Shown: positions 1-14,383 of the stretch, piece by piece
Layout of the letters: the number at the start of each line of letters is the position of its first letter
How positions within the stretch are numbered: the first letter of the stretch is position 1
From: Curtobacterium sp. Leaf183
GTDB taxonomy: Bacteria; Actinomycetota; Actinomycetes; Actinomycetales; Microbacteriaceae
Length of the DNA stretch: 64,000 nucleotides
Assembly: GCF_001424385.1 (NCBI RefSeq)
Contig: NZ_LMPO01000007.1
Span: 21,449 to 85,448 of the forward strand
Reading direction: 5' to 3'
Position numbers and translations under genes: made by a program
The notes under the pieces: generated by a model
What the model saw: the letters and a program-made list of their open reading frames with translations, nothing else
What the model was told of the DNA's origin: nothing
Database searches by the model: none

Positions 1-702
1 CGCGTCCGCCCGCGACCGCTCGCGGACGGCGTCGATGTGCGTCCGCATCGCGGCGACCGCCGTCTGGGGATCGACCCCCAGCGCGTCCACGATCGCCTGG
101 TGCTCGTGCACGGCACGGTCGGTGTCGTCGTCGCCGCCCTCGACGATCTGCCGCATCCGGTGCACCCGCGTCGTGATGACCTCGGACATCTCCTGCAGGA
201 ACGGGTTGCGTGCGGCGTCGAACACGACCTGGTGGAACTGCCAGTCGCTCCGGAAGAACCGGGCCATCAGCTCCTCGGGCGCGGCCTGCACCCCCACGGC
301 CGCGATCTCCCGGACCACCGCCGCCTGTTGCCCGAGTGCCGCCTCGAGTCGCGCACGCAGCGCGCCGACGTCACCCCGGGCCGCGAGGTCGACCGCGCCG
401 CTCTCGATGATGAGCCGGGCGTCGAACAGCGCCTCGAGCTGGTCGCCGGCGAGCGGCGGAGCCACGCGGTACCCCTTGTTCGCCTCGCGCACCACCAGGC
501 CGGTCCGCTCGAGCTGCACCAGCGCCTCGCGCACCGGGGTGGGCGAGACGCCGAGCGTCCGGGCGAGCCCGTCGATCGACAGGCGCATGCCCGGCTCGAC
601 GTCGTGCCCCATCAGCACGTCGAGCACCCGGTCGTACACGCGGTCGCGCAGCCCGCGCTGCGTGATGCGTCCCGTCGGGAAGCCGGGCACGGTGGTGGTC
701 AC
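1..702 (-). CDS. GntR-family (FCD/FadR-type) transcriptional regulator, C-terminus cut by window edge
   Basis: Reading leftward from a GTG at 702, the frame is open to the window edge (234 codons). The N-terminal part, about residues 15-85, is a GntR winged helix with the typical helix SPTPVREALVQLERTGLV. An all-helical FCD ligand domain follows, with the DARLIIESGAVDLAA start and the metal/ligand-associated WQFHQVVFDAARNPFL segment. Members repress or activate nearby catabolic genes in response to small carboxylates; the ligand here cannot be told. The GTG is chosen because a TAGGAT -10 box ends 7 nt before it and the winged helix begins soon after. It lies just downstream of the S9 peptidase gene in the same direction (27 nt gap) but probably has its own promoter. 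The stop codon is outside the window. Confidence 0.9.
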   Translation of the reverse strand, partial: MTTTVPGFPTGRITQRGLRDRVYDRVLDVLMGHDVEPGMRLSIDGLARTLGVSPTPVREALVQLERTGLVVREANKGYRVAPPLAGDQLEALFDARLIIESGAVDLAARGDVGALRARLEAALGQQAAVVREIAAVGVQAAPEELMARFFRSDWQFHQVVFDAARNPFLQEMSEVITTRVHRMRQIVEGGDDDTDRAVHEHQAIVDALGVDPQTAVAAMRTHIDAVRERSRADA

Positions 703-709
703 GTCCTCG

Positions 710-715
710 ATCCTA
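710..715 (-). promoter_or_regulatory. -10 box TAGGAT, predicted leaderless start of the GntR regulator
   Basis: TAGGAT on the minus strand ends 7 nt before the GTG at 702. Transcription starting 6-7 nt after a -10 box would begin at the start codon. A GAGGAC next to the GTG could also act as a weak ribosome site, so leaderless initiation is an inference. Confidence 0.45.
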
Positions 716-729
716 GGGAACGCCGGGTC

Positions 730-2667
730 TCACCCGAGACGGGAGGCCAGGAACGACACCATCGTCCGGACGAGTTCCGCACGCGACGTCGCCCGGCGGT
801 ACTCGTGCCCCTCGCCCGCGAGCTCGAGGTACTCGACGTCGTGCGCCCGGTCGCGCAGTGCGGCGACGAGCTGGTGCGCCTCGCCGATCGGCACGTTGGT
901 GTCGAGCTCACCGTGCACGACGAGCAGCGGCGCCGTCACGTCGTCGACCGCGCGCATCGGCGACAGCGACGCGAGCAGCTCGTGGTCGTGCACCGGGTGA
1001 CCGTACTTCGTCGCCGCGGCGCCGGCGATCCACGGTTCGGTGTCGCGGTAGAACGTCGCGAAGTCGCTCATGCCGCACACCGCGACCCCGGCCGCGAAGA
1101 CGTCCGGGGTGAACGCCAACGAGGCGTTGGTCGCGTAGCCGCCGTACGAGCGGCCCTCGACCGCGACGCGCGACCGGTCTGCCCAGCCCGACGACACGAG
1201 CCACCGGGCGCAGTCGACGACGTCGGCCAGCGCGTCCCACCGCAGGGCCAGGTCGTCCGCGTGCACGAACGCGGCGCCGTACCCGGAGGAACCCCGGATG
1301 TTCGGTGCGAAGACGGTGATGCCCGCCGCGGCGAGCGCCTGGTGCTGCGGCGAGAACGTCGGCCGTTCCTGCGACTCCGGCCCGCCGTGCAGGTGGACCA
1401 TCGCTGCGCGACGGCGTGGAGGCTCGGCCCGGCCCTCGTCGCCGGCCGCGGGTGACGCGGTGGCCGGCTCGACCGCCGGGTAGAGCCATCCGGTCAGCTC
1501 CAGTCCGTCGCGTGCGGCGAAGCGCTGCAACACGGGTTCGACGAGCGGGGTGTCCGGCAGTGCCGGGGCGTCGGTGACGCGGCTCCAGGTCAGGGCGTTC
1601 GTGTCGAGACGCCACAGACCGCGGGGGCTGGTCGGTCCCTCGACGGCGAGGATGACGCTGCGGCCGTCGCGGCTGAGCACCGGGTCGGTGACGACCGCAC
1701 CGGGCAGGTCCGGCACCGGGGTGCGCGAGGCGTCGTGCGTGTTGACGAGCTCGAGCTCGCTGCGCCCGTCGACGTTCCACCCGAGCAGCAGCGTGCGGCC
1801 GGCGTCGTCGGCGTCGAGGAACTCGAGCTCGGCGTCGTCACGTCCGACGATGCGTCGGGACCGTCCGCGCCACCCGTGCGGGCCGACGGGCTGTGCGACG
1901 AGCTGGCGGCGCGGAGCACCGGCCTCGGTGGCGACGTACGCCACGAGCGGGCTGGTCTCGCTCGCCGGGGACGGCCGCAGGAACGCGATCTCGGCGGATC
2001 CGGACGGCGGGTCGGTCAGCAGCGGGTGGCTCTCGTCGGTCAACCGGTCGACGGCGACGACGAACTCCTGCCCGCGCTGCCCGTCGCGCAGCACCACCAG
2101 GCGTTCCTCGACCGACAGGTCGAGCACGTGGATGAGCTCGCCGACCGCCAGGTCGTCGCGGTCGCCGGACACCGGGTCCACCAGGTACGCGCGGGCGGGC
2201 TGCTCGGGCTCGGTCGACGGCAGGGTGATCACGACGCGGTGCCCGCTGCGGCTCCACGGTCCGAGTTCGGCGTGCTGATACCGCGACCCGGCGATCTGCG
2301 CCGCGTCGGAACCGTCGGGACGGACCACCCAGACCTGCTGCTTCACGCCGCCGTCAGTCGCGATCGCCACGGCGAGCCACTCGCCGTCCGAGGACCACGA
2401 CACCCGGATGACCGGGTCGTCGGACAGTCCGATGCGGGTCGGCTCGGGGGGTGGGCCGTCCACCACGACGTCCTGCACGAACACCTCTGGGGTGCCGAAC
2501 CGGTCGCTCACGAAGGCGACACGGCGCGCGTTGCGCGTCATCGTCGGGCCCCACGACCCCCAGGCGGCCGTGAGCCGCTCGCCCAGGTCGGCCGCGGCCT
2601 CGGTCCTGACCGCCCCGACGACCGTCACCCGCGTGGCGACGTCGGTGGGGCCTCCCGCCCGGTTCAC
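730..2667 (-). CDS. S9-family serine peptidase (prolyl oligopeptidase / acylaminoacyl-peptidase type)
   Basis: The N-terminal two thirds read as a WD/DPP-like beta-propeller (repeats such as VSWSSDGEWLAVAI and PVLSRDGRSVILAV). The C-terminal third is an alpha/beta-hydrolase domain with HLHGGPE for the oxyanion region, a catalytic serine in GRSYGGY (about residue 507), an aspartate in HGELDTNVP and a histidine in GEGHEYR. S9 enzymes cleave short peptides because the propeller limits access. The frame is open further up to an ATG at 2691, but the GTG at 2667 overlaps the upstream amidotransferase stop as GTGA, typical of translational coupling, and is preferred. No signal peptide is seen, so it is likely cytoplasmic. 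As third gene of the ligase-amidotransferase unit it may hydrolyse the product of that pathway; this is inference from context. Confidence 0.85.
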   Translation of the reverse strand: MNRAGGPTDVATRVTVVGAVRTEAAADLGERLTAAWGSWGPTMTRNARRVAFVSDRFGTPEVFVQDVVVDGPPPEPTRIGLSDDPVIRVSWSSDGEWLAVAIATDGGVKQQVWVVRPDGSDAAQIAGSRYQHAELGPWSRSGHRVVITLPSTEPEQPARAYLVDPVSGDRDDLAVGELIHVLDLSVEERLVVLRDGQRGQEFVVAVDRLTDESHPLLTDPPSGSAEIAFLRPSPASETSPLVAYVATEAGAPRRQLVAQPVGPHGWRGRSRRIVGRDDAELEFLDADDAGRTLLLGWNVDGRSELELVNTHDASRTPVPDLPGAVVTDPVLSRDGRSVILAVEGPTSPRGLWRLDTNALTWSRVTDAPALPDTPLVEPVLQRFAARDGLELTGWLYPAVEPATASPAAGDEGRAEPPRRRAAMVHLHGGPESQERPTFSPQHQALAAAGITVFAPNIRGSSGYGAAFVHADDLALRWDALADVVDCARWLVSSGWADRSRVAVEGRSYGGYATNASLAFTPDVFAAGVAVCGMSDFATFYRDTEPWIAGAAATKYGHPVHDHELLASLSPMRAVDDVTAPLLVVHGELDTNVPIGEAHQLVAALRDRAHDVEYLELAGEGHEYRRATSRAELVRTMVSFLASRLG

Positions 2668-4463
2668 CGCACCCCCTGGTGCTGCAGCCACATCTCGATC
2701 AGGCCGAGCTGCCAGAGTGCGTTCGCGCCGATCTCGGTCCTGGTGGTGTTCGGGTCGCGGAGCATCCGCTCCACCGTGGCCGGGTCGAACAGACCGCGCT
2801 CGCGCGCCTCTGGTGCGTGCAGCGCGACGCGGACGCGCTCGAGGTAGGGGCCCTCGAGCTGCCGGATCGCCGGTACGGGGAACGAGCCCTTGGTGCGGTC
2901 GATGACCGCGTCGGGGACGATGCCGCGCGACGCCCGCTTCAGCACGCCCTTGCCGCCGTCGGCGAGCTTGAGCGCCGTCGGGACCGCACCGGCCAGCTCG
3001 ACGAACTCGTGGTCGAGGAACGGCACGCGGGCCTCGAGCCCCCAGGCCATGGTCATGTTGTCGACGCGCTTGACCGGGTCGTCGACGAGCATGATGGTCG
3101 TGTCGCTGCGGAGTGCGGCGTCCACGCTGTCGTCGGCACCCGGGCGGGCGAACTCCCGGTCGACGAACGCCGACGGAGTGTCGTCGTCGCTGCGCCAGCG
3201 CTCCCCGAGCAGTCCCTGCAGAGCCGGCCAGCGGCGGTCCATGAACACCGAGCGGTACGCCTCGGCGGCCTGGTCCCGCGGGACGTCGGCCAGGGGCGGG
3301 TACCAGCTGTAGCCGGCCAGGACCTCGTCGGCACCCTGCCCGGACTGCACGACCTTGACGTGCTGCGAGACCTCTTGTGACAGCAGCCAGAACGCGACGC
3401 AGTCGTGGCTGACCATGGGCTCGCTCATCGCCGCCACCGCGCCGTCGATGCCGTCGAGCAGCCGCGACGACGGGATGCGGATGCGGTGGTGGTCGGTGCC
3501 GAAGTGCCGGGCGACCAGGTCCGAGTACTCGAACTCGTCGCCGGACTCACCGCCGGCCGACTCGAAGCCGATGCTGAACGTGGCGAGGTCGCGCTGACCG
3601 GCCTCGGCGAGCAGGGCGACCACGAGCGAGGAGTCGATGCCGCCGGAGAGCAGCACGCCCACGGGGACGTCGGCGACCATGCGCCGTCCGACCGCGGTGC
3701 GGAGGGACTCGACCACGGCGTGCTGCCAGTCCTGGTCCGACCAGTCGGCCTTGGCCGGGTCACGCTCGAACCGGGGTTCCCAGTACACGGTGTCCGTGGT
3801 CGTGCCGTCGGGCTCGACCACCCGGACGGTCGCGGGCGGGAGCTTGCCGACACCGGACAGGATCGTGCGCGGAGCCGGGACGATCGAGTGGAAGGTCATG
3901 TACGACGCGAAGGCGACCGGGTCGATCGACGTGTCGACGTCATGGCTGCCGCCGCCGCTGCCCGCCAGGACCGCGGGCAGGGAGCTCGCGAACCGGAGCC
4001 CGCCGGGCACAGGAGCGACGTAGAGCGGCTTGATGCCCAGGCGGTCCCGCGCCAGGACGAGCCGCCCGCTGGCGTGCTCCCAGATCGCGATCGCGAACAT
4101 CCCGACCAGGTGCTCGACGAACGCGGTGCCCCACTCGGCGTACGCGGCGACGATGACCTCGGTGTCCGACGTCGAGTCGAAGGTGTGGCCCTTGCCGTGC
4201 AGCTCGTCGCGGAGCTGCCGGTAGTTGTAGACCATGCCGTTGTAGGCGATCGTGAGACCCAGCCGCGCCACGACCATCGGCTGCGCCCCGGCGGTGGACA
4301 GGTCGACGATCGACAGACGTCGGTGGCCGAGCGCGACGGGGCCGCGGGCCCACAGGCCGTCGCCGTCGGGGCCCCGGTGCACCATGCAGCCCGTCATCCG
4401 GGCGACCGCGCCCACGTCGGGTGCGGTGCCGTCGAAGCGGATCTCGCCCGCGAGCCCGCACAT
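2664..4463 (-). CDS. Asparagine-synthetase-type glutamine amidotransferase (N-acetylglutaminylglutamine-amidotransferase-like)
   Basis: About 599 residues. After the initiator Met comes Cys2 (MCGLAGEIRFDG), the nucleophile of the class II glutaminase domain, which runs to about residue 210. The synthetase half has the PP-loop LLSGGIDSS at 272-279. The frame is open 10 codons further upstream, but only the ATG at 4463 exposes Cys2 after Met removal; it overlaps the upstream stop as TGATG. The enzyme takes ammonia from glutamine and amidates a carboxylate activated as an acyl adenylate. The N-terminal segment IRFDGTAPDV and the overall sequence recall, from memory, the TIGR03104 amidotransferases of the N-acetylglutaminylglutamine amide osmolyte pathway more than ordinary AsnB. 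The neighbours, a peptide-type ligase upstream and a peptidase downstream, fit an amidated small-peptide product. Plain asparagine synthetase remains possible. Confidence 0.87.
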   Translation of the reverse strand: MCGLAGEIRFDGTAPDVGAVARMTGCMVHRGPDGDGLWARGPVALGHRRLSIVDLSTAGAQPMVVARLGLTIAYNGMVYNYRQLRDELHGKGHTFDSTSDTEVIVAAYAEWGTAFVEHLVGMFAIAIWEHASGRLVLARDRLGIKPLYVAPVPGGLRFASSLPAVLAGSGGGSHDVDTSIDPVAFASYMTFHSIVPAPRTILSGVGKLPPATVRVVEPDGTTTDTVYWEPRFERDPAKADWSDQDWQHAVVESLRTAVGRRMVADVPVGVLLSGGIDSSLVVALLAEAGQRDLATFSIGFESAGGESGDEFEYSDLVARHFGTDHHRIRIPSSRLLDGIDGAVAAMSEPMVSHDCVAFWLLSQEVSQHVKVVQSGQGADEVLAGYSWYPPLADVPRDQAAEAYRSVFMDRRWPALQGLLGERWRSDDDTPSAFVDREFARPGADDSVDAALRSDTTIMLVDDPVKRVDNMTMAWGLEARVPFLDHEFVELAGAVPTALKLADGGKGVLKRASRGIVPDAVIDRTKGSFPVPAIRQLEGPYLERVRVALHAPEARERGLFDPATVERMLRDPNTTRTEIGANALWQLGLIEMWLQHQGVR

Positions 4464-7012
4464 CAGCGCGCTGCTTCCGCGTCGATGATCCACGTGTCCT
4501 TGGCGCCGCCGCCCCGCGAGGAGTTGACGACCATGCTGCCCTCGGGGGCGACGCGGGTCAGGGCGACGTCGGCCAGGTGGACGTCGTCCGGGCCGGTCCC
4601 GGTGACGTACACGAACGCCCGGAGGTCGACGTGCCGCGGGTCGAGGCCGGAGGGGCCGATGGTGGGGTGCGACGACAGCTGCACGACCTCTTGCCCCACC
4701 CAGCCCGCGGGGTCGGCGGCGATCGCGCGTCGGCGTTCCGCGACCTCGGGGGCACTCGCGCTCGGACCGATCATCACGTCGCGGCCGCCCTCGCCGTCGA
4801 CGGGCTTCGTGACGAGCTCGCCGACGCGGTCGAGCACGGACAGCCGCTCGACCTCGATGCCGGTGCGGTACGTCGGCACGGACTCGAGCAGGGGCTTCTG
4901 CTCGAGGTAGTACCAGATCAGGTCCGGCACCCAGACGTACATCGCCTTGTCGTCGACCAGCGCGTTGCCCGGCGCGTTGGCGAGGTGCACCGTGCCCGCC
5001 TGCGCCGCGTCGAGGATCCGCGCGCCGAGGTCCGGGGTCGCGTCGGTCCGCAGCGCGCTGACGTCGCGGTCGATCCGCAGGTAGAGCGCGTGCAGGACCT
5101 CGCCCGACGGGGCATGGACCACCTGCCCGTCGCGGACGTCGAGGTCGGACTCGGACACCAGCCGCATGCCGGCGCCGTCAGCCAGGCGACGGTGTTCGTA
5201 CCAGGCACCGGCGCCCGGGCCGTCCGACACCAGGGCCACGACCGGGTCCGGGTGGCCGGTGACGGCGGACGCGTTCGCGCAGAGGGTGTCACGCAGCAGA
5301 CCGAGGACGGTGTGCGGGTCGCGCAACCGGTCGGGGCGGGGGGCGTCCGGCACCACGTCGTCCATCATCTCGCGCAGGGCGAGTCCGTACGCGACACCGG
5401 AGGGCGAGCGAACGTTGTCCTCGAGCACGCGCCACCCGCCGAACTCGTTCCGGATCAGGTCGAAGCCGATCACCGACGCCCGGACGGCATCGGCGGGGAG
5501 CCGAGCCGCATCCGGGTCCCAGCCGTTCGCCCCGACGAAGTCGTCCTGGTGCATCGCACCGTCCGTGACGATCCGTCTGGCGCCGTACGCGTCACGCAGG
5601 AAGAGCTCGATGGCCCGTGCCCGCTGGGCGAGACCGGCCTCGAGCTGGGCCCACTCGTAGGCACTGATCGTGCGCGGCACCAGGTCGCACCCGAAGACCT
5701 GCACGCCGCCGTCGACGACGAACCCGACCTCGTGCTCGCGGGTCCAGACGTCCCGCGCGGCGCAGTGCTCGATCGTGGTGTCGGCGTCCCAGCCGCGGAA
5801 GAACGCGGCGAGGTCGCGGAAGGCGGGGCGCGGGCGGGCACCGGGTCCGACCGCTTCGTCGCCCGCGCGCACCCGGTAGGACGGGATCGCGACCACGGGG
5901 TGTTCCTCGTGGCCGGAGGGCGTCCCCGCGGTGTCGGCGATGACCTGGGCGACGACGTCGTCCAGGCTGCCGCGCTCGGCGTACGCGGTGCGTTGCCGGT
6001 CGGTGGAGGTGCCCCGCGCGAGCGTGTCCTCGACCAGGTCGGCCACCGTGGCCCAGTCGCCGAGTTCCTCGAGCTCGGGACGCAGGCGGGAGACGAGCTG
6101 TCGGACCGCGATCTCTGCCGGCAGGCGCTCCGGGTGCTGCCCGAGCCCGAGCAGTTCGCCGCTCAGACCACTGCGGGCGGCCTGCCACATCGCCGCCCGG
6201 TGCAGCGGTTCGCTGCGCGGGTGCCACTCGCCGCCCGACTCGACCGCGAGCTCGGCCTTGCGGACCGCGGCGCGGAAGAGCCCCGCGATCAGGACGGCGT
6301 CGTCGACCACGGGGGTGGCGTCGCAGACCCGGAGCTCGAGCGTCGGCGCGTGGGACGAGGGCCGGACGTCGAAGTACGCCATCTTCTTGTCGGCGATCAC
6401 GCCCGACGCGATGAGGTCGTCGAGCACCTTGTCGTACTCCGCCGCACTCGACACCCGACCGAAGCTGCCGGCGGACGGCCACCGCTGCCAGATGATGCTG
6501 CGGAACGAGGAGTACCCGGTGTCCTGCCCGTTCCAGAACGGACTCGACGCGCTCAGGGCCAGCAGCGCGGGCAGCGTCGGTGCCACGCGCTGGGCGATCT
6601 GCACCGCCAGGTCGCGGTCGCTCACCCCGACGTGCACCTGCAGCCCGCAGATGAGCTGTTCGTCGACGAGCATCCGGTACTGCTCCTGCATCCGGCCGAA
6701 GCGACCGCCCGACGTCAGCTCGAAGTCGGCGTACTCGGACCGGGGCGCCGTGCCGGCCGCGGCGATCGTCACCCCCGCGGGTTCGATCGCGGCGGCGAGC
6801 TCCTGGCGCAGGTCGACGATCACGCGCCGGAGGTCGTCGAGGGTCGTCACGACCGGGGTGTTCGTCTCGATGGTGGTCCGCTGCAGCTCGGCGCCGAAGC
6901 GGTCGGCGGGCAGCTTGGGCAGAAGGCGCGGGGCCTTCGCGGAAAGTCGGCCGGACTCGAGGTCGATGAGGTGCAGTTCTTCCTCGGCGCCGAGCGTCAG
7001 CTCTGCACTCAT
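4463..7012 (-). CDS. Fused carboxylate-amine ligase (GCS2/YbdK-like) and circularly permuted type 2 ATP-grasp
   Basis: 849 residues with two ligase modules. Residues 1 to about 370 are a glutamate-cysteine-ligase type 2 domain: LGAEEELHLIDLESGRL start, the GLQVHVGVSD metal strand, and APTLELRVCDATP. Residues about 410-845 are a circularly permuted ATP-grasp: ISAYEWAQLEAGL, VIGFDLIRNEFGGWRVLEDN, the LVTKPVDGEGGRDVMIG loop, and a C-terminal VNSSRGGGAKDTW. Both families join an amino group to an ATP-activated carboxylate, so the protein could make two successive amide bonds. It is the first gene of an overlapping unit with an amidotransferase and an S9 peptidase. Substrates cannot be read from the sequence. 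The start ATG sits 6 nt after a TAGGTT -10 box and has no Shine-Dalgarno sequence, so a leaderless mRNA is likely. Confidence 0.88.
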   Translation of the reverse strand: MSAELTLGAEEELHLIDLESGRLSAKAPRLLPKLPADRFGAELQRTTIETNTPVVTTLDDLRRVIVDLRQELAAAIEPAGVTIAAAGTAPRSEYADFELTSGGRFGRMQEQYRMLVDEQLICGLQVHVGVSDRDLAVQIAQRVAPTLPALLALSASSPFWNGQDTGYSSFRSIIWQRWPSAGSFGRVSSAAEYDKVLDDLIASGVIADKKMAYFDVRPSSHAPTLELRVCDATPVVDDAVLIAGLFRAAVRKAELAVESGGEWHPRSEPLHRAAMWQAARSGLSGELLGLGQHPERLPAEIAVRQLVSRLRPELEELGDWATVADLVEDTLARGTSTDRQRTAYAERGSLDDVVAQVIADTAGTPSGHEEHPVVAIPSYRVRAGDEAVGPGARPRPAFRDLAAFFRGWDADTTIEHCAARDVWTREHEVGFVVDGGVQVFGCDLVPRTISAYEWAQLEAGLAQRARAIELFLRDAYGARRIVTDGAMHQDDFVGANGWDPDAARLPADAVRASVIGFDLIRNEFGGWRVLEDNVRSPSGVAYGLALREMMDDVVPDAPRPDRLRDPHTVLGLLRDTLCANASAVTGHPDPVVALVSDGPGAGAWYEHRRLADGAGMRLVSESDLDVRDGQVVHAPSGEVLHALYLRIDRDVSALRTDATPDLGARILDAAQAGTVHLANAPGNALVDDKAMYVWVPDLIWYYLEQKPLLESVPTYRTGIEVERLSVLDRVGELVTKPVDGEGGRDVMIGPSASAPEVAERRRAIAADPAGWVGQEVVQLSSHPTIGPSGLDPRHVDLRAFVYVTGTGPDDVHLADVALTRVAPEGSMVVNSSRGGGAKDTWIIDAEAAR

Positions 7013-7024: not shown

Positions 7025-7087
7025 CCGGCGACGGGTGTCGCGCGCACGGGGGTACAGCAGGCTGTGAACAACCCCGTGGCTCGTCCG

Positions 7088-7093
7088 TAGAAA
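7088..7093 (+). promoter_or_regulatory. Weak -10 box TAGAAA before the hydrolase-dehydrogenase operon
   Basis: TAGAAA is followed by six bases (CGAAGG) and the ATG at 7100. The GAAGG touches the ATG and is too close to act as a ribosome site, so the spacing fits a leaderless start. The box lacks the usual final T. Confidence 0.35.
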
Positions 7094-7099
7094 CGAAGG

Positions 7100-8446
7100 A
7101 TGACGGCGACCGCATTCTGCCTGCACGCCCTCGGGTCGAGTTCCGAGGAGTTCGCGACCCTCCGTGCGCGTCTCGCCGGGACCCTCGACCTGATCGGCGT
7201 CGACCTGCCCGGCTTCGGGCGGTCCTCCGCCGTGACCGGCACGACCGTCGAGGAGATGGTCGAGCGCGTCGAGCGTGCCATCGGCCGGAGCGGCGCCACC
7301 GAGTGGGTGCTCGTCGGGCACTCGATGGGCGGCAAGGTCGCCTCGGTCGTGGCGTCACGGACCATCGACGGCTCGAACGGCCTGTTCGGCCTGCGCGCCG
7401 TGGTGCTGCTCGCCGCCTCGCCGCTGTCGCCCGAGCCGATGGACGACGAGCGGCGACAGACCATGCTCGGCTGGGCGTCCGACGGCGAGATCGGCCCGGA
7501 CGAGGCCGACACCTTCGTGTCCGCGAACACCGACGAGCAGCTGCCGCCGGAGCCCCACGCCATGGCCGTGCACGACGTGCAGCGCGCCGCCCCCGAGGCC
7601 TGGACCGCCTGGCTCGTCCGCGGCAGCCGCGAGGACTGGTCCGACCGCTTCCCCCCGAACCCGGTGCCGGCGCTCGTCCTGGCCGGCGCGGCCGACGGCG
7701 ACCTCGGACCCGACGCGCAGCGCACCCTGAACCTGCCGCACTGGCCGAACGGCGAGTTCGGCGTCGTCGAGGGCGCCGCCCACCTGCTGCCGTGGGAGCG
7801 CCCGGACGACGTCGCCGACCGCATCCGGGACTTCTGGGACCGCCGAGTCGCTCCAGGACCCCTCGTGCCCGCCGCCACCGTGCGCGTCATCGCCTCACCG
7901 CGCGTCAGTGCGCGGACCCGGGGCATCCTGGCGGTCCGGTCGCTGCCGGACGACCCCGGCGCATCCCCGCAGGTCCTCACCGACCGCCAGCTGACCACCC
8001 TCCGTGCGGTCGCCCGGGTCGTCGTGCCGCAGGACGACCGTCCGGTGGACCTGGCGCTCCGCGTCGACGCGCAGCTCGCCGACGGCCTCGGCGACGGCTG
8101 GCGTCCGGACGGGCTGCCCGTCGACGTGGACGCCTACCGCGCCGGACTCGACGCACTCGCGCCCGAGGCCGACCGGGGCGACGACCACCTGGCGACCGTG
8201 CTCGACGCGGTGTCCGAGGGCGAGCACACTCCGGCCGCCGGTCCCTTCGACGCGGAGCAGCTCCGCGCCTGGGCCGAGGACGCCAGCGTGGACCTCGCAA
8301 AGCAGTGGGTCGCGCACCCCGCGACCATGGCCGAGATCGACTACGACGGCTTCGCCAACGGTGGCGACGGCGTCCGCAAGCAGGGCTTCCTGCTCCTCGG
8401 AGCGGGACAGCGAGAAGCATGGGAACCGGCGGGAGCCGCACGATGA
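7100..8446 (+). CDS. Alpha/beta hydrolase fused to a gluconate 2-dehydrogenase subunit 3-like domain
   Basis: 448 residues. Residues 1 to about 255 form an alpha/beta hydrolase: CLHALGSSSEEFATL, nucleophile serine in VLVGHSMGGKVAS, acid region PALVLAGAADGDLG and histidine in VEGAAHLLPWE. After a linker, residues about 295-440 resemble the gluconate 2-dehydrogenase subunit 3 family: LTDRQLTTLRAVARVVVPQD followed by a helical body ending in KQGFLLLGAG. That family is the small partner of GMC-type flavin dehydrogenases, and a GMC oxidoreductase gene starts inside this stop codon (ATGA overlap), which supports the assignment. Neither part has a Tat signal, unlike the secreted gluconate dehydrogenases. 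The hydrolase may release or lactonase-process the substrate or product of the dehydrogenase; this is inference. The fusion is unusual. Confidence 0.8.
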   Translation: MTATAFCLHALGSSSEEFATLRARLAGTLDLIGVDLPGFGRSSAVTGTTVEEMVERVERAIGRSGATEWVLVGHSMGGKVASVVASRTIDGSNGLFGLRAVVLLAASPLSPEPMDDERRQTMLGWASDGEIGPDEADTFVSANTDEQLPPEPHAMAVHDVQRAAPEAWTAWLVRGSREDWSDRFPPNPVPALVLAGAADGDLGPDAQRTLNLPHWPNGEFGVVEGAAHLLPWERPDDVADRIRDFWDRRVAPGPLVPAATVRVIASPRVSARTRGILAVRSLPDDPGASPQVLTDRQLTTLRAVARVVVPQDDRPVDLALRVDAQLADGLGDGWRPDGLPVDVDAYRAGLDALAPEADRGDDHLATVLDAVSEGEHTPAAGPFDAEQLRAWAEDASVDLAKQWVAHPATMAEIDYDGFANGGDGVRKQGFLLLGAGQREAWEPAGAAR

Positions 8447-10032
8447 ACCTGAACGACCAGCGCCGGTATGCCGAGGACGAGATCGTCGACGTGGTGGTCG
8501 TCGGCACGGGTGCGGGTGGCGCACCGCTGCTCGCGACCCTGGCACGACGCGGCCTGCGGGTCGTCGCCCTCGAGGCCGGTCCGAACACGGAGCCCGGGGA
8601 CCACACGCCCGACGAGGTCGAGGCCCCCGGTGACATCAACTGGATGGACGAGCGCATCAGCGGTGGCAGCGCCCCGACCGCGTTCGGCCCGAACAACAGC
8701 GGCACCGGCGTGGGTGGGTCGACGCTGCACTGGGGTGCGTTCACCCCGCGCCCGAACGAGCACGACATCCGGCTGCGCACCGACTCGGGCAAGGGCGAGG
8801 ACTGGCCGATCGAGCACGCCGAGCTGGTCCGCTGGATCGAGCAGGCCGAGCACGACGTCGGCGTCGCCGGACCCGCGCACTACCCGTGGGACCCCGCTCG
8901 TCGCTACCGCATGGGCCCGGCGGCGCGGAACGCCTCGTCGGACATGATGATGCGCGGCACCGCGGCCCTCGGGATCACGGCCACTGATGCCCCCGTGGGA
9001 CTCACCACCGAGGACCGCATGCAGGAGCACCACGGCCTGCGCCAGGCGTGCGTGGCGTGCGGCTCGTGCCACCAGGGCTGCCGGAACGGCGCGAAGGTGT
9101 CCATGGACACCACGTACCTGCCCGCTGCGGTCGCGTTCGGCGCGGAGATCCGTGCCGAGTCGTTCGTGCACGGCATCGAGCTCGACGCCCGTGGGCAGGT
9201 CGAGGCGGTCGTCTACCGCCAGGGTGGCCGTGACCACCGCCAGCGCACCCGCTCCCTCGTACTGGCCGCCGGCGGGATCGAGACCCCCCGGCTGCTGCTG
9301 CACACCGGACTCGCCAACAGCAGCGGTCAGGTCGGCCGGAACTTCACGGCCCACGGCGCGACCCAGGTGTGGGCGACGTTCGACGAGTCGATGCGCTCGT
9401 ACCGCGGCTACCCGTCGTCGATCATCACCGAGGACTTCATCCGTCCCGAGGGCGTCGACTTCGCTGGCGGCTACCTGATCCAGAGCCTGGGCGTGCAGCC
9501 GCTGACCCTCGCGACCTCGCTCGTGCGCGGCGGTGGCCTCCGTGGCGCCGCCCTCGTCCGGGCGATGCGCGACTACCCGCGGATGGCCGGCGTCGGCATC
9601 AACGCCGAGTGCCTGCCGTACGACGACAACCGGCTGGTCCTGACCGACGAGCTCGACGCGAACGGGATGCCCGTCGCCCGGGTCACGTTCTCGCCCGGTG
9701 ACAACGAGGCCGCGGTCGCGGAGCACGCCATCGCGACGATGACCGCGATCGTCGAGGCCGCCGGCGGCAAGGACGTGCGCGTGCTCGACCGCACCGCGCA
9801 CACCGTGGGCACCGCGCGGATGGGCACCGATCCCGAGCGCTCGGTCGTCGACGCGGTCGGCCGCTCGTGGGACGTGCCGAACATGTGGATCGTCGACAAC
9901 TCGGTCTTCCCGAGTTCGCTCATCGCCAACCCGGCGCTGACGATCATGGCGCTGTCGCTCCGCACCGCCGACCGCATGCTGGCCGACGACGTCGCGGCCG
10001 ACCGCGACCAGGCGGCGCGCGTCGCCGTCTGA
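8443..10032 (+). CDS. GMC-family FAD-dependent oxidoreductase
   Basis: 529 residues. The FAD Rossmann motif GTGAGGAPLLATLARRGL lies at 21-38 and is followed by an acidic strand end (ALEAGP). A cysteine group CVACGSCHQGC near residues 203-213 is shared with membrane or periplasmic GMC dehydrogenases. The C-terminal GMC domain includes HTVGTARMGTDPERSVVD and IVDNSVFPSS with IANPALTIMAL. GMC dehydrogenases oxidise alcohols, sugars or sugar acids, using FAD as first acceptor. The start ATG overlaps the upstream stop (ATGA) and the frame is open far upstream only as a shadow. Its partner is the subunit-3-like domain fused to the upstream hydrolase; no cytochrome subunit gene is present nearby. The substrate is unknown. 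Confidence 0.88.
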   Translation: MNLNDQRRYAEDEIVDVVVVGTGAGGAPLLATLARRGLRVVALEAGPNTEPGDHTPDEVEAPGDINWMDERISGGSAPTAFGPNNSGTGVGGSTLHWGAFTPRPNEHDIRLRTDSGKGEDWPIEHAELVRWIEQAEHDVGVAGPAHYPWDPARRYRMGPAARNASSDMMMRGTAALGITATDAPVGLTTEDRMQEHHGLRQACVACGSCHQGCRNGAKVSMDTTYLPAAVAFGAEIRAESFVHGIELDARGQVEAVVYRQGGRDHRQRTRSLVLAAGGIETPRLLLHTGLANSSGQVGRNFTAHGATQVWATFDESMRSYRGYPSSIITEDFIRPEGVDFAGGYLIQSLGVQPLTLATSLVRGGGLRGAALVRAMRDYPRMAGVGINAECLPYDDNRLVLTDELDANGMPVARVTFSPGDNEAAVAEHAIATMTAIVEAAGGKDVRVLDRTAHTVGTARMGTDPERSVVDAVGRSWDVPNMWIVDNSVFPSSLIANPALTIMALSLRTADRMLADDVAADRDQAARVAV

Positions 10033-10102
10033 CGCGACCGACCGACTACTGGAGTACACCCGCACCGTGCGAGTTCGCCGCCCGGTGCGACGTCGACCGC
10101 CC

Positions 10103-10172: not shown

Positions 10173-11042
10173 TCACCCCCGCGTGCGCGCCAACCGACGG
10201 TTCAGCGCGCCGTTCAGCAGCGCGACGAGCAGTCCCACCGCGAACACCAGCGTCCCGAAGCAGAGCACCTGCGGCGGCATCCCGGCCTTCGCGGCGCCGT
10301 ACACGAACAGGGGGAAGGTCACCGCGGGCCCCGCGACGAACGACGTGATCACGTAGTCGTCGATCGACATCGCGAGCGCCAACAGTCCCGCGGCGAGCAT
10401 GCCCGGCGCCAGCAGCGGGAGCGTCACGAGCCGGAAGGCCTGGAACGGTGTCGCACCGAGGTCACCGGCGGCCTCCTCGAGTGCCCGGGAGGTCCCCGCG
10501 ATCCGCGCCCGCAGCACCACGACGACGTACGCCACGTCGAACGCCACGTGTGTCAGCAGCACCGTCAGGAACCCGGTCCCGAGCCCGATCGACAGGAAGA
10601 ACGACAGCGACGCGGACCCGACGACGATCGACGGCGCCGCGATGTCGGCGAACACGACGCTGTTCACGACGCCGCGGCCCGGGAACCGGTACCGCTCGAG
10701 GGCCAGCGCGAGCGGCAGCCCGATCGCGACGGACACGATCGCGGCCAGGAACGCGACGACCACGGACGTCACGAAGGCCTGCCCGAGCCCGGACACGTTC
10801 ACCAGGTTGGCGTACCAGTAGGTCGTGAAGCCGTTCCACGCGAACGACAGGCGGTTCGTGGGGGCGTCGTTGAACGAGTACACGACCATGTAGACGATCG
10901 GCACGAGGGTGATCGCGATGACGACCCAGTACACGATCGCCAGCCACGGCCCGCGGCGGTTCACGCCGTTGCGGTGCACGACCGGCGCGGAGACCGGCGA
11001 TGCCGGTCCTGTGGACGAACGGGGTGGGGCGACGGCGGTCAT
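10173..11042 (-). CDS. potC: Polyamine ABC transporter permease PotC
   Basis: 289 residues with about six membrane segments (first near 36-57, WLAIVYWVVIAITLVPIVYM). It carries the inner-membrane-permease EAA loop EEAAGDLGATPFQAFRLVTLPLL near residue 190, the contact site for the ATPase. The FNDAP segment after the first helix is typical of PotC-class spermidine/putrescine permeases. It is the last gene of the leftward operon; its ATG overlaps the potB stop (ATGA). Substrate class is inferred from the potD and polyamine catabolic neighbours. Confidence 0.9.
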   Translation of the reverse strand: MTAVAPPRSSTGPASPVSAPVVHRNGVNRRGPWLAIVYWVVIAITLVPIVYMVVYSFNDAPTNRLSFAWNGFTTYWYANLVNVSGLGQAFVTSVVVAFLAAIVSVAIGLPLALALERYRFPGRGVVNSVVFADIAAPSIVVGSASLSFFLSIGLGTGFLTVLLTHVAFDVAYVVVVLRARIAGTSRALEEAAGDLGATPFQAFRLVTLPLLAPGMLAAGLLALAMSIDDYVITSFVAGPAVTFPLFVYGAAKAGMPPQVLCFGTLVFAVGLLVALLNGALNRRLARTRG

Positions 11043-11962
11043 ACGAGGTCCTCGAGGTCGTCGGTGCCGGAGACCCGGGCGTAGATGAACAGGATGATGC
11101 CGAGCACGACCATGAGCACGGTCGACAGGGCCGCGGCGACGTTGTACTGCTGGTTGCCGGAGTAGGCGTCCTGGATCGCCTGCCCGATCGTGTACGTGTT
11201 CGTGCCCCCGAGCAGCGCCGAGTTGACCGGGTCGCCGACGCAGTCGATGAACACGAGCAGCACCCCGGCGAAGATGCCGGAGCGGGACAGCGGCAGCGTG
11301 GTGTGCCAGAACGCACGGACCTTACCGGCGTACAGGTCGTTCGCCGCCTCGCCGAGTCGTGGGTCGATCCGCTCGAGCGCGGCGTAGATCGGCAGCACCA
11401 TGAACGCCAGGTCGTTGTACGCGTCCCCGAAGACGACCGCCCCGCCGGTGCCGAGGATGTGGAAGTCCTTGCCGGCCAGCCCGATCCCCTGCAGGACGGT
11501 GACGACGGGCCCCTGCGACGCCAGCACGAACGCCCACATGTCGGTGCGGATGACGAACGACACCAGGAAGCTGATGAACACGAGCATGAGCAGCGGGTTC
11601 TTCCACCGCGGCGACACCCGGAACGCCACGAAGTACGCCACCGGGTACCCGACGATGATCGTCACGACGGTGGCGGCCAGGCCGTACCAGAGCGAGCGCA
11701 GCAGGAACGTCAGGTACGGCACCTGCGGGTCGACGAACAGCGACGAGTAGATCCCGAAGTTCCACGTGAACGTGTACCCGTCGTCCGGGTTGCCCGACAT
11801 CAGCGAGACGATCAGCCCGGACACCAGCGGGATCACGAAGAACACGCAGAGGTACGCGGTGCCGACCAGCGCGAGCAGGAACGGCGTGCTGCGACGACGT
11901 CCCCGGCGTACCGGCGCGGTGCCGGCGGGCCCGAGCCCCGGGGCCACCCCGACGGCGCTCAC
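11039..11962 (-). CDS. potB: Polyamine ABC transporter permease PotB
   Basis: About 307 residues, six predicted membrane helices (first LLALVGTAYLCVFFVIPLVSG). The EAA loop reads LGEAANDLYAGKVRAFWHTTLPLS. An ATG at 11995 lies in frame inside potD, but the GTG at 11962 overlaps the potD stop as GTGA and gives a normal N-terminus, so it is chosen. It pairs with PotC to form the channel. Gene order potA-potD-potB-potC differs from the classical potABCD order but is common in actinobacterial polyamine loci. Confidence 0.88.
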   Translation of the reverse strand: MSAVGVAPGLGPAGTAPVRRGRRRSTPFLLALVGTAYLCVFFVIPLVSGLIVSLMSGNPDDGYTFTWNFGIYSSLFVDPQVPYLTFLLRSLWYGLAATVVTIIVGYPVAYFVAFRVSPRWKNPLLMLVFISFLVSFVIRTDMWAFVLASQGPVVTVLQGIGLAGKDFHILGTGGAVVFGDAYNDLAFMVLPIYAALERIDPRLGEAANDLYAGKVRAFWHTTLPLSRSGIFAGVLLVFIDCVGDPVNSALLGGTNTYTIGQAIQDAYSGNQQYNVAAALSTVLMVVLGIILFIYARVSGTDDLEDLV

Positions 11963-13167
11963 GACTGCACCACCGCGTTGAAGATGCCGTTCCACTCCGA
12001 GTACTCGTCGTAGTTGGCGAACACGCGGAACTCGTGCGACTTCTCCAGCACCGACGCATCCGGGAACACGAGCGGACTGTCGGCCACGGTGGGGTCCTTG
12101 AGCTCATCGCGCACGTAGTCCTCGGCGCCGGGCACCGGGCACACGTAGTTGACGTAGTCCTCGACGATCCCGGCGATCCGCGGCGTGTAGTAGTAGTCCA
12201 TCCAGGTCAACGCCGACAGCGGGTTGGCGGCCTGCTTCGGGATGAGCATGTTGTCGTGCCACATCATCTGGCCCTCGTCCGGCGTGACGAACTCCAGGTC
12301 CGGGAACCCGGACTGCTGCGCCTGGAACACGTCACCCGACCACGCCTGGGTGATCCACGTGTCGCCGTTCTCCAACCGGTTGACGTAGCTCTGGTCGTAG
12401 AAGCCGGCGACACTCGGCCGCAGCTTCCGCAGCCAGTCCTGCGCCTTCCGCCAGTCCGACGGCGTCGAGGTCTCCGGAGCGATGCCGAGCGCCAGCAGCG
12501 CGAGCGAACCGAGCTCGGTGTTGTCGCTCATCAGCCCGATGCGGCCACGGAACGCGGGGTCGAGCAGGTCCTGGAACGAGGTGATCTTCCGCCCGGTGTA
12601 CTTCGGGTTGTACGCCAGGCCCGTGAACCCGGTCTGCCACACCACGGAGTGCTTGTTGCCCGGGTCGTAGTTCGGGTCCTGCACCGAGTCCGACGCGTAC
12701 TTGGCGAAGTTCGGCATCCGCGACCGGTCGAGCTGGCACACGAAGCCGTTCTTGATCATCTCGGTGAGCTCGTACCCGTTCGTCATGACGACCAGGTCGT
12801 AGCCGGTCGACCCCTTCGCCCGGAGGATCGGGGAGACGGTGGCGTAGAACGTCGCGTTGTCCTGGATCACCGCCTGGTAGTCCACGGCGATGCCCGTCTC
12901 CTGCTCGAACAGCCGCAGGGACTCGGACTTGCCGTGGTCGGAGTCGATGTACAGCGGCCAGTTCGCGAAGTTCAGGTCCTTGGTCTCCTTCGCGTCCCGC
13001 CAGAAGGCCGTCCAGTCGACGGGGTCGCCCTGCGACCCGGCCGAGCCCTTGATGCTGCACCCGGTCAGCAGGGCGGCGAGCGCCGCGGCACCGCCACCGG
13101 CGAGCAGCCCCCGGCGGCTGACGCGGGCGGAGGTCAGGCCGCGCAGCAGGTCGGGTCCGGCGCTCAT
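11959..13167 (-). CDS. potD: Polyamine-binding lipoprotein PotD
   Basis: 402 residues. The N-terminus has a twin arginine at 18-19 (VSRRGLLAGGG), a hydrophobic run and a lipobox LLTGC with Cys37, so it is exported, possibly by Tat, and lipid-anchored outside the membrane. The mature part is a class of spermidine/putrescine periplasmic binding protein: NFANWPLYID, FEQETGIAVDYQAVIQDN, YDLVVMTNGYELTEMI and WITQAWSGDVFQAQ. It captures polyamines and delivers them to PotBC. The ATG at 13167 overlaps the potA stop (ATGA). In-frame sequence further upstream belongs to potA's shadow. Confidence 0.92.
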   Translation of the reverse strand: MSAGPDLLRGLTSARVSRRGLLAGGGAAALAALLTGCSIKGSAGSQGDPVDWTAFWRDAKETKDLNFANWPLYIDSDHGKSESLRLFEQETGIAVDYQAVIQDNATFYATVSPILRAKGSTGYDLVVMTNGYELTEMIKNGFVCQLDRSRMPNFAKYASDSVQDPNYDPGNKHSVVWQTGFTGLAYNPKYTGRKITSFQDLLDPAFRGRIGLMSDNTELGSLALLALGIAPETSTPSDWRKAQDWLRKLRPSVAGFYDQSYVNRLENGDTWITQAWSGDVFQAQQSGFPDLEFVTPDEGQMMWHDNMLIPKQAANPLSALTWMDYYYTPRIAGIVEDYVNYVCPVPGAEDYVRDELKDPTVADSPLVFPDASVLEKSHEFRVFANYDEYSEWNGIFNAVVQS

Positions 13168-14354
13168 GCGACCGCACCTGCGGTTGCGGGCTGGCCGGAC
13201 GGGAGGCCCGGTGCGGGCTGGGTGGTGACGGTCGCGTCGGACGTGTGCGGAGCCTCCAGACCGAAGCCGTGGTCGACGCCCCAGGTGAGCCACACCTCGG
13301 TGCCGGTCGCGACCCGCGGGCCGCCCTTCGAGTTCTGGGCGAACACCGACACCCGGCCGGCTCCGGGGACGTCGACCAGGTACTGCGTGCTGACGCCGGA
13401 GAACGAGACGTCGACGACGCGTCCGGGTCCGAGGATGTTGCGGCCGGGTTCGCGCGCGGGTTCGGCGGTGCGGATCTTGAGCTTCTCGGGGCGGACCCCG
13501 ACGACCACGCGGCCCGTGGTGGTGACCGCGCGGTCGGTGGGCACGGCCAACGTGCCGGCCGCGGTCCGGACGACCAGCAGCGGGCCGTCGGTGCCCTGCA
13601 CGTCGCCCTCGAGCAGGTTCGACTGCCCCAGGAAGTTGGCGACGAACGCGGTGCGCGGGAGTTCGTAGAGGTCCTCGGGGCTGCCCATCTGCTCGATCCG
13701 ACCGCCGTTCATCACGGCGACGGTGTCGGCCATCGTCATCGCCTCCTCCTGGTCGTGGGTGACGTGCAGGAACGTCAGCCCGACCTCGGCCTGGATGGTC
13801 TTGAGCTCGAGCTGCATCTGGTGCCGGAGCTTCAGGTCGAGGGCGCCGAGCGGTTCGTCGAGCAGCAGCAGCGCCGGCCGGTTGACGATGGCGCGGGCCA
13901 GGGCGACGCGCTGCTGCATGCCGCCGGACAGCTGCGCGGGCCGCTTCGACGCCGACGCCTCGAGCTCGACCAGCCGCAGCGCCTCGCGCGCCTTCGTCAT
14001 CGGGTCCGGGATGCGGCGGCGCTTCAGGCCGAACGCGACGTTGTCGAGCACGCTCATGTGCGGGAAGAGCGCGTAGTTCTGGAACACGGTGTTGACCGGC
14101 CGCTGGTACGGCTTGGTCTCGGTGACGTCCTCGCCGCCCAGCAGGATGCTGCCGCTCGTGGGTTCCTCGAGCCCGGCGACCAGTCGGAGCGTGGTGGTCT
14201 TGCCGCAGCCCGACGGACCGAGCAGGGCGAAGAACGACCCCGCCGGGACCGTCAGGTCCAGGGCGTCGACCGCGGTGTGCCCGGGGAACGACTTGGTGAT
14301 CTGCTCGAGCCGGAGATCGGCTCCCGATTCGGCGAACGTGCCGGTCACTGCCAT
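13164..14354 (-). CDS. potA: Polyamine ABC transporter ATP-binding protein PotA
   Basis: 396 residues. Walker A GPSGCGKTT near 46-54, Q-loop in NTVFQNYALFPHMSV, signature LSGGMQQRVALARAI, Walker B LLLLDEPLGALD, H-loop FLHVTHDQEEAM. A C-terminal TOBE-type domain (about 290-390, GVRPEKLKI) is the usual regulatory extension of this subfamily. The ATG at 14354 is set by a strong AGGAGG ribosome site 6 nt upstream and by the family N-terminus (LRLEQITKSFPG). It powers uptake through PotBC. It follows the aldehyde dehydrogenase gene after 29 nt in the same operon. Confidence 0.93.
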   Translation of the reverse strand: MAVTGTFAESGADLRLEQITKSFPGHTAVDALDLTVPAGSFFALLGPSGCGKTTTLRLVAGLEEPTSGSILLGGEDVTETKPYQRPVNTVFQNYALFPHMSVLDNVAFGLKRRRIPDPMTKAREALRLVELEASASKRPAQLSGGMQQRVALARAIVNRPALLLLDEPLGALDLKLRHQMQLELKTIQAEVGLTFLHVTHDQEEAMTMADTVAVMNGGRIEQMGSPEDLYELPRTAFVANFLGQSNLLEGDVQGTDGPLLVVRTAAGTLAVPTDRAVTTTGRVVVGVRPEKLKIRTAEPAREPGRNILGPGRVVDVSFSGVSTQYLVDVPGAGRVSVFAQNSKGGPRVATGTEVWLTWGVDHGFGLEAPHTSDATVTTQPAPGLPSGQPATAGAVA

Positions 14355-14383
14355 GGTGCCTCCTGCTGCAGGGTGGATCGGGC

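Follow-up and report, generated by a model that had tools for sequence, protein, structure and literature searches.

Introduction

Three overlapping genes of Curtobacterium sp. Leaf183 raise the question of what compound would be made by a two-domain peptide ligase, an asparagine-synthetase-like amidotransferase and a serine hydrolase encoded in one compact row. The genes lie in a stretch of 64,000 nucleotides of contig NZ_LMPO01000007.1, called here the window (GC 67–74%), in a host assembly of 3.58 Mb in 12 contigs. The original prediction saw in them a pathway parallel to that of the osmolyte N-acetylglutaminylglutamine amide (NAGGN), which would make a dipeptide-like compound, amidate its carboxylate and recycle it. 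The amidation reaction of NAGGN with its terminal glutamine is described in passages of PMC8070244, NAGGN clusters in Micromonospora are reported in parts of PMC11537254, and according to an excerpt of PMC5768760 two Frankia alni proteins assigned to NAGGN synthesis increase under PEG. The combination of a GCS2/permuted-ATP-grasp ligase with a TIGR03104 amidotransferase and an S9 hydrolase was not found in the literature searched, among the matches listed; an earlier mention may exist. Iyer et al. 2009 is said to deal with amidoligases and may mention the combination.

Gene layout and domain content

The longest open reading frames of the unit, all on the minus strand, span 4463–7012, 2664–4493 and 730–2691, with the ligase gene first, followed by the amidotransferase and then the S9 gene (Table 1). 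The ligase TGA overlaps the amidotransferase ATG in a TGATG junction, with Cys as the next codon (CTGATGTGCGGG), and the GTG start of the S9 gene lies within the amidotransferase TGA in a GTGA junction (GCGGTGAACC); the real starts are therefore placed at about 4463 (amidotransferase, Met-Cys) and 2667 (S9), slightly inside the longest frames. The overlaps described in the original prediction are thus borne out, as are the three protein assignments, namely a GCS2 ligase fused to a permuted ATP-grasp, an AsnB-type amidotransferase with Cys2 and SGGIDS, and an S9 peptidase.

Table 1. Coordinates of the unit's features in the window and of DUF1028 genes in three other loci
Feature	Position	Strand	Evidence
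Two-domain ligase, GCS2 plus circularly permuted type-2 ATP-grasp, 849 aa	4463..7012	minus	Open reading frames, Pfam, NCBIfam, motifs
GCS2 domain (glutamate-cysteine-ligase-type, gamma-glutamyl ligase), residues 7-282	6167..6994	minus	PF04107, 178 bits; NF010041, 348.6
Circularly permuted ATP-grasp domain, residues 446-822	4547..5677	minus	PF14403, 327.1 bits; Foldseek
TIGR03104 amidotransferase, catalytic Cys2	2664..4463	minus	905.6 bits against cut-off 570.1; junction; model pLDDT 87.5
Amidotransferase C-terminal loop RTEIGA, residues 585-590 of 609-aa ORF	2724..2741	minus	Post hoc lead
S9-family serine hydrolase, GTG start	730..2667	minus	PF00326, 158.3 bits; motifs GRSYGG/GELDTN/GEGHEY
DUF1028 gene	L043:10831-11553
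DUF1028 gene	L045:8171-8959
DUF1028 gene	L111:8861-9700

The ligase combines the Pfam domains GCS2 and CP_ATPgrasp_2 and passes both NF010041 (cut-off 332) and TIGR02050 (261 against a cut-off of 176.4), with no match to the NCBIfam model of Ngg, TIGR03103. Motifs of both halves, which we take to carry catalytic meaning, do not vary among the 20 fused ligases aligned (GxEEE, HV, RP and ELR; LEDN, DDK and KPxxGxGG). In Foldseek searches with a predicted model whose whole-ligase pTM is only 0.57, similarity to YbdK is seen for the GCS2 half, and the ATP-grasp half matches 3n6x (8.5e-27) as well as human and plant glutathione synthetases (1e-8 to 1e-10, at 10–13% identity). This succession of a gamma-glutamyl ligase and a glutathione-synthetase-like ligase suggests that two successive bonds are made. 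The second half might join an amine instead of a residue, since glutathionylspermidine synthetases appear further down the same fold list (2io9 at 1.7e-6) and 3n6x itself bears that putative name. The closely similar ligase of Curtobacterium sp. VKM Ac-2922 is 90% identical, and the two loci have flanking genes in common.

The amidotransferase consists of GATase_6 and Asn_synthase (305.3) domains, with SGGIDS at residue 283 of the 609-aa frame. It belongs by NCBIfam to TIGR03104, the N-acetylglutaminylglutamine amidotransferase family, and also exceeds the cut-off of TIGR01536 (420.8 against 267.1); a comparison of TIGR03104 with AsnB models, proposed beforehand as a check, marks it as something other than plain AsnB. 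Its predicted model aligns with TsnB9 (Z 36.6), AsnB (34.0) and beta-lactam synthetase (about 30). The S9 protein passes no NCBIfam cut-off and carries GRSYGG at 513, GELDTN at 594 and GEGHEY at 626 of a 653-aa frame; a role in recycling the product is consistent with its nearest solved relatives, which are amino-acyl peptidases (5l8s, 9.6e-38).

Distribution and co-inheritance

Matches over the TIGR03104 cut-off occur in 18/149 genomes of the phylum, 36/198 of the order, 106/394 of the class and 34/66 of the genus, the host's own included. None was found in 13 sampled same-family genomes of other genera, and the amidotransferase is present in named records of the same-family genera Subtercola, Glaciihabitans and Microbacterium. 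At E<=1e-80 the fused ligase is matched along its full length in five phylum genomes of 396, and 28 more are matched by one half only.

A scan of named records with the ligase, of which the best 80 of 588 matches were kept, yielded 19 fused ligases from Subtercola, Glaciihabitans, Microbacterium, Curtobacterium, Actinoplanes, Winogradskya, Pseudonocardia, Micromonospora, Mycobacterium, Sphaerisporangium, Actinoallomurus, Pseudonocardiales MAGs and one MAG labelled Nevskia. Every one of these 19 has the amidotransferase downstream (across gaps of 2.4 kb in L179 and 1.6 kb in L186), and 18 have the S9 gene, the one miss (L184) lying at a contig end. Among the same best 80, a stand-alone GCS2 gene accompanies amidotransferase and S9 in Microbispora, Nonomuraea (two) and Streptomyces (two, one with its S9 cut near a contig end), the GCS2 loci of a Nonomuraea (L189) and a Herbidospora (L190) have neither partner nearby, and the other kept loci are ATP-grasp genes without an amidotransferase. 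Since the arrangement recurs in many actinobacterial families, it lies far beyond chance.

Within the genus, the three-gene stretch is matched in 33 of the 34 TIGR03104-positive genomes, in 29 by a single alignment and in four by adjoining or contig-split pieces; in G705, which is 65% complete, the unit genes are broken into frame pieces. In the exception, G698, the ligase and a divergent orphan amidotransferase stand at separate places. An empty site is found in G724, where the matches to window positions 1–723 and 7048–10043 lie 55 bp apart, a configuration that original absence and precise loss would leave alike. The unit has also decayed in places, to the ligase alone in G737 and G738 and to an S9 fragment in G708, and the ligase stands away from any amidotransferase in three Curtobacterium genomes (G737, G738 and G698). 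For the most part the three genes are present or absent together, and the neighbourhood survey suggested at the outset found them conserved as a set both in the named records and in the genus.

Stray relatives were seen beside this pattern. The orphan fused ligases of G737 and G738 (L278, L279) are full-length in genomes without a TIGR03104 match, and an XdhC-like frame, identified by eye, lies just downstream in L278; the ligase of G698 (L277:5118-8652), with neither amidotransferase nor S9, is directly followed by a GNAT acetyltransferase gene. Curtobacterium genomes G750, G732 and G698 (L263, L264 and L265) encode a second amidotransferase, divergent and TIGR03104-like (768–783 bits), with none of the mapped ligases near it; the copy in L264 adjoins an Orn/Lys/Arg decarboxylase gene.

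Partners and phylogeny of the amidotransferase

The partners of TIGR03104 amidotransferases were surveyed in 83 loci, comprising 78 stretches and five plasmid loci, which were mapped with the window proteins and with Ngg and M42 of Azospirillum. The stretches came from overlapping sources (18/18 phylum, 26/40 order and 45/107 class places), and as the order and class loci were hand-chosen with a leaning to lower scores, the proportions of partners are not frequencies. The 84 amidotransferases were labelled as partnered with Ngg (41), fused ligase and S9 (17), GCS2 and S9 (12), fused ligase without S9 (3), ATP-grasp (2), GCS2 outside the clade described below (2), S9 without an adjacent ligase (2), a ligase remnant and S9 (1, L132) or none (4). 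M42 lies within the locus in 24 of the 41 Ngg rows, and S9 in two, as part of an adjoining unit in L155 and about 5 kb off in L119.

In a tree of the 84, a single clade nested among the Ngg-partnered sequences unites the 35 amidotransferases of fused, GCS2 or S9 type (node SH-aLRT 92, below the 95 mark, from a quick tree search), and that of the window falls in a set of eight, all with fused ligase and S9 (support 99). From this nesting, the cassette probably arose when an amidotransferase of NAGGN type acquired new partners. Of the 35 clade rows, 32 have S9 within the locus (it is absent in L126, L145 and L146), and no whole ligase stands beside the amidotransferase in three (L129, L131 and L132). 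The ATP-grasp half is missing from the GCS2 and S9 units, 12 of the 35 clade loci, and is thus not essential to every member. In a GCS2 tree that includes a misframed row (L261_own2) and long branches, the fused L183 groups with the stand-alone set of Nonomuraea and Microbispora (support 96), which is consistent with derivation of stand-alone GCS2 genes from fused ligases. Across 29 units, the pairwise identities of ligase, amidotransferase and hydrolase covary (Spearman 0.58–0.67), a pattern that fits common descent and is not separable from species history.

The exchange of partners is not confined to this clade, and L111 and L051 have GCS2 genes outside the 35 rows. In L043, L045 and L111, from two other lineages, the TIGR03104 amidotransferase adjoins a DUF1028 gene; Pfam labels DUF1028 as of unknown function, and we presume it to be a hydrolase, in which case M42 and S9 may have a third counterpart. 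The accompanying ligases are a permuted ATP-grasp (L043), a permuted ATP-grasp with a separate GCS2-like gene (L045) and a GCS2 (L111), the neighbouring single genes of L045 supporting the two-ligase logic of the fused protein. Ligase and presumed hydrolase have thus been replaced on more than one occasion beside an amidotransferase of the same family.

The clade and the Ngg-partnered rows share their synthetase core: 168 window positions, among them those of the P-loop, SGQGADE and DDPVKRVD, are near-invariant in at least 97% of the 35 clade rows and at least 95% of the 41 Ngg rows. The clearest group-specific positions, clade versus Ngg-partnered, lie near the C-terminus, at 544 (Arg versus Thr/Lys), 585 (Arg versus Leu) and 589 (Gly versus Arg/Lys), in a loop that reads LTPLRG-type in Ngg-partnered relatives. 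Residue 589 is Gly in 39/39 rows with other partners and non-Gly in 40/40 Ngg-partnered rows, a post hoc split with three independent pairs (p 0.25), so that it is a lead only as a mark of specificity. The count leaves aside L046, which has a gap, and five no-partner or orphan rows, with Gly in L110, L134 and L264 and another residue in L141 and L160. As the synthetase site is the same as in Ngg-partnered relatives, the terminal residue amidated is probably unchanged, glutamine as in NAGGN, while the N-terminal part of the substrate would have changed.

Neighbouring genes

No fourth widely recurrent family of at least 80 aa was found across 58 unit loci with a rough gene finder, which picked up 54 of the amidotransferases, 51 of the ligases and 42 of the S9 genes. 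An apparent fourth family in 17 loci was an antisense frame of the unit where inspected, and a GntR-like neighbour family is confined to one cluster of relatives. The flanking GntR/FCD gene (window 1–702), whose distance to the unit varies among Curtobacterium, is for that reason not counted as part of it, nor is the alpha/beta hydrolase gene (window 7100–8446), which flanks the unit in several Curtobacterium. Further out, beyond a GMC-oxidoreductase-like gene, polyamine-type ABC transporter genes (two permeases and a substrate-binding protein) were recognised by eye at window 10173–14622 on the minus strand. In one group of relatives a GNAT gene stands near the unit (L120:3528-4070 and L126:6431-6907), that of L126 occupying the expected position of S9.

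Proposed pathway and alternatives

The unit is most plausibly a self-contained cassette of three enzymes whose mode of action parallels that of the NAGGN trio, though its ligase and its hydrolase are different ones, a reading to which a probability of about one half is given. For its substrates, order of steps, product and role we infer the following scheme. The GCS2 domain would join the gamma-carboxylate of glutamate to an amino acid and the glutathione-synthetase-like permuted ATP-grasp domain would add a further residue; lineages without the latter would stop at the dipeptide or use another gene. The amidotransferase would then move the amide nitrogen of glutamine onto the terminal carboxylate to give a carboxamide, and the S9 hydrolase would degrade the product and so tune its level. 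The predicted product, of the type gamma-Glu-X(-Y)-NH2, would probably serve as a compatible solute or a stress metabolite.

Much of the same evidence bears on whether the unit could instead make NAGGN itself, the new ligase replacing Ngg and S9 replacing M42 in a non-orthologous manner. Such a replacement is unlikely, even though the amidotransferase passes the equivalog cut-off of TIGR03104 and shares its core site with Ngg-partnered relatives, and acetylation in trans is conceivable because GNAT genes are found in the vicinity of some units (L120, L126 and the relatives L145 and L146) and beside the orphan ligase L277. Against it, no acetyltransferase domain was detected by Pfam in any of the three unit proteins, the split at residue 589 follows the partner, with the weight of a post hoc lead, and three genomes carry both systems, with Ngg confirmed by TIGR03103 in each: G264, where they lie 1.3 kb apart (L155), G320 and G160, a draft of about 500 contigs whose ngg reads one internal stop. 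This coexistence strengthens the notion of a parallel pathway. Rather improbable is a redox or detoxification role for a glutathione-like gamma-glutamyl thiol amide in place of an osmolyte: in family and fold, the two halves of the ligase correspond to the two activities that build glutathione, but NAGGN, the product of the closest pathway relative, is an osmolyte and no recurrent thiol-linked neighbour was seen among the neighbours of at least 80 aa found by the rough gene finder in the 58 loci.

Readings that dissolve the unit fare worse. That it is a plain asparagine synthetase beside unrelated peptide enzymes is very unlikely: the amidotransferase does pass TIGR01536 and is the sole AsnB-like gene found in the genome, AsnA being outside the search and the remaining TIGR03104 matches covering the glutaminase part only, but its TIGR03104 score is twice as high. 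GatB is present (453.4 bits, cut-off 314.8) and no AsnRS exceeds the cut-off (best 120.5 against 342.6), so that formation of Asn-tRNA by transamidation fits, with GatA, GatC and the type of AspRS outside the test. An AsnB-like match is absent from 31 of the 66 genus genomes at E<=1e-20, at which 6 of 14 control genomes match, E. coli, B. subtilis and C. glutamicum among them; together with GatB this makes a need of the enzyme for asparagine unlikely. Asparagine can most likely be made on tRNA, and the amidotransferase gene is most likely accessory. The concern that the organism has no other asparagine synthetase and depends on this one therefore held in its former half, no other AsnB-like gene being found, and is unlikely in its latter, as GatB is present and about half of the genus lives without such a gene. 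Exceedingly improbable is membership of a ribosomal-peptide cluster of lasso type, with an AsnB-like cyclase and an S9 isopeptidase; the best NCBIfam match of the S9 gene is indeed NF033523, a lasso isopeptidase model, and among the matches of the amidotransferase is the lasso cyclase model NF033535, but both stay far below their cut-offs (58.3 against 400 and 207.4 against 525), and the rough gene finder gave no additional widely recurrent neighbour of at least 80 aa in the 58 loci.

The cassette reading has consequences for annotation, as the NCBI naming model labels the unit amidotransferase an NAGGN enzyme. If the unit makes another compound, the whole clade is misnamed, including Streptomyces and Nonomuraea records (L206, L217, L188 and L244), and an undescribed solute or stress metabolite could be sought simply by mass spectrometry. 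How acceptor specificity is set could also be asked directly, by way of an amidotransferase whose ligase and hydrolase partners have been swapped repeatedly. A broader view is possible but tentative: the unit may stand for an unrecognised, widespread actinobacterial class of gamma-glutamyl peptide amides, made by a glutathione-style double ligase with NAGGN-type capping, in which TIGR03104 would be a general module for amidating a terminal glutamine, repeatedly re-partnered with ligases (Ngg, GCS2, or GCS2 with a permuted ATP-grasp, fused or separate) and hydrolases (M42, S9 and DUF1028), with a single NAGGN naming model covering them all.

Comparison with known systems

The unit, with its observed gene identity, motif conservation, co-inheritance and phylogeny, is a real, conserved and modular cassette, best read as a relative of the NAGGN trio, which is annotated in Azospirillum as AsnO (TIGR03104), Ngg (TIGR03103) and an M42 peptidase. 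The two share the amidotransferase family, the logic of ligase, amidotransferase and hydrolase, and a compact gene row. They differ in the ligase, which in NAGGN synthesis is Ngg with GNAT and ATP-grasp parts and in the window GCS2 with a permuted ATP-grasp and without GNAT, in the hydrolase (M42 versus S9), and in the gene order, where the window has the ligase first. Ngg was found in 0/66 genus genomes, the host's own included, at E<=1e-20, in a search that scored at most 17 first-look candidates per genome (17 of 19 in the host) and matched TIGR03103 in 7/7 Ngg-labelled control genomes; tblastn with the Azospirillum M42, confined to the loci, gave none in L052 and 0/35 in the clade. Pfam, NCBIfam and tblastn thus agree with the original prediction that ligase and hydrolase are of other families. 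Two of the three proteins that define the NAGGN trio, Ngg and M42, were not found in these searches, so that the unit falls outside the trio, yet its way of working is probably similar.

The 'asnO-ngg' cluster of Casuarina Frankia, likened here by its published description only, as far as passages of PMC5563000 give it, has a high-identity AsnO and a 'Ngg' less than 15% identical to known Ngg, for which the NAGGN reading was kept; a dipeptidase gene stands between asnO and ngg, and the gene order differs from that of the window unit. The GCS2 'glutamate--cysteine ligase' subfamily (NF010041, YbdK-like) includes the N-terminal half of the window ligase by its cut-off, but in the window this GCS2 forms one protein with a second ligase and is coupled to an amidotransferase, and its substrate need not be cysteine. 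The consecutive synthesis of glutathione offers a possible likeness for the ligase as a whole, in which a permuted ATP-grasp of glutathione-synthetase-like fold comes after a gamma-glutamyl ligase; the likeness is one of low identity, and the window unit adds to it an amidotransferase and an S9 hydrolase.
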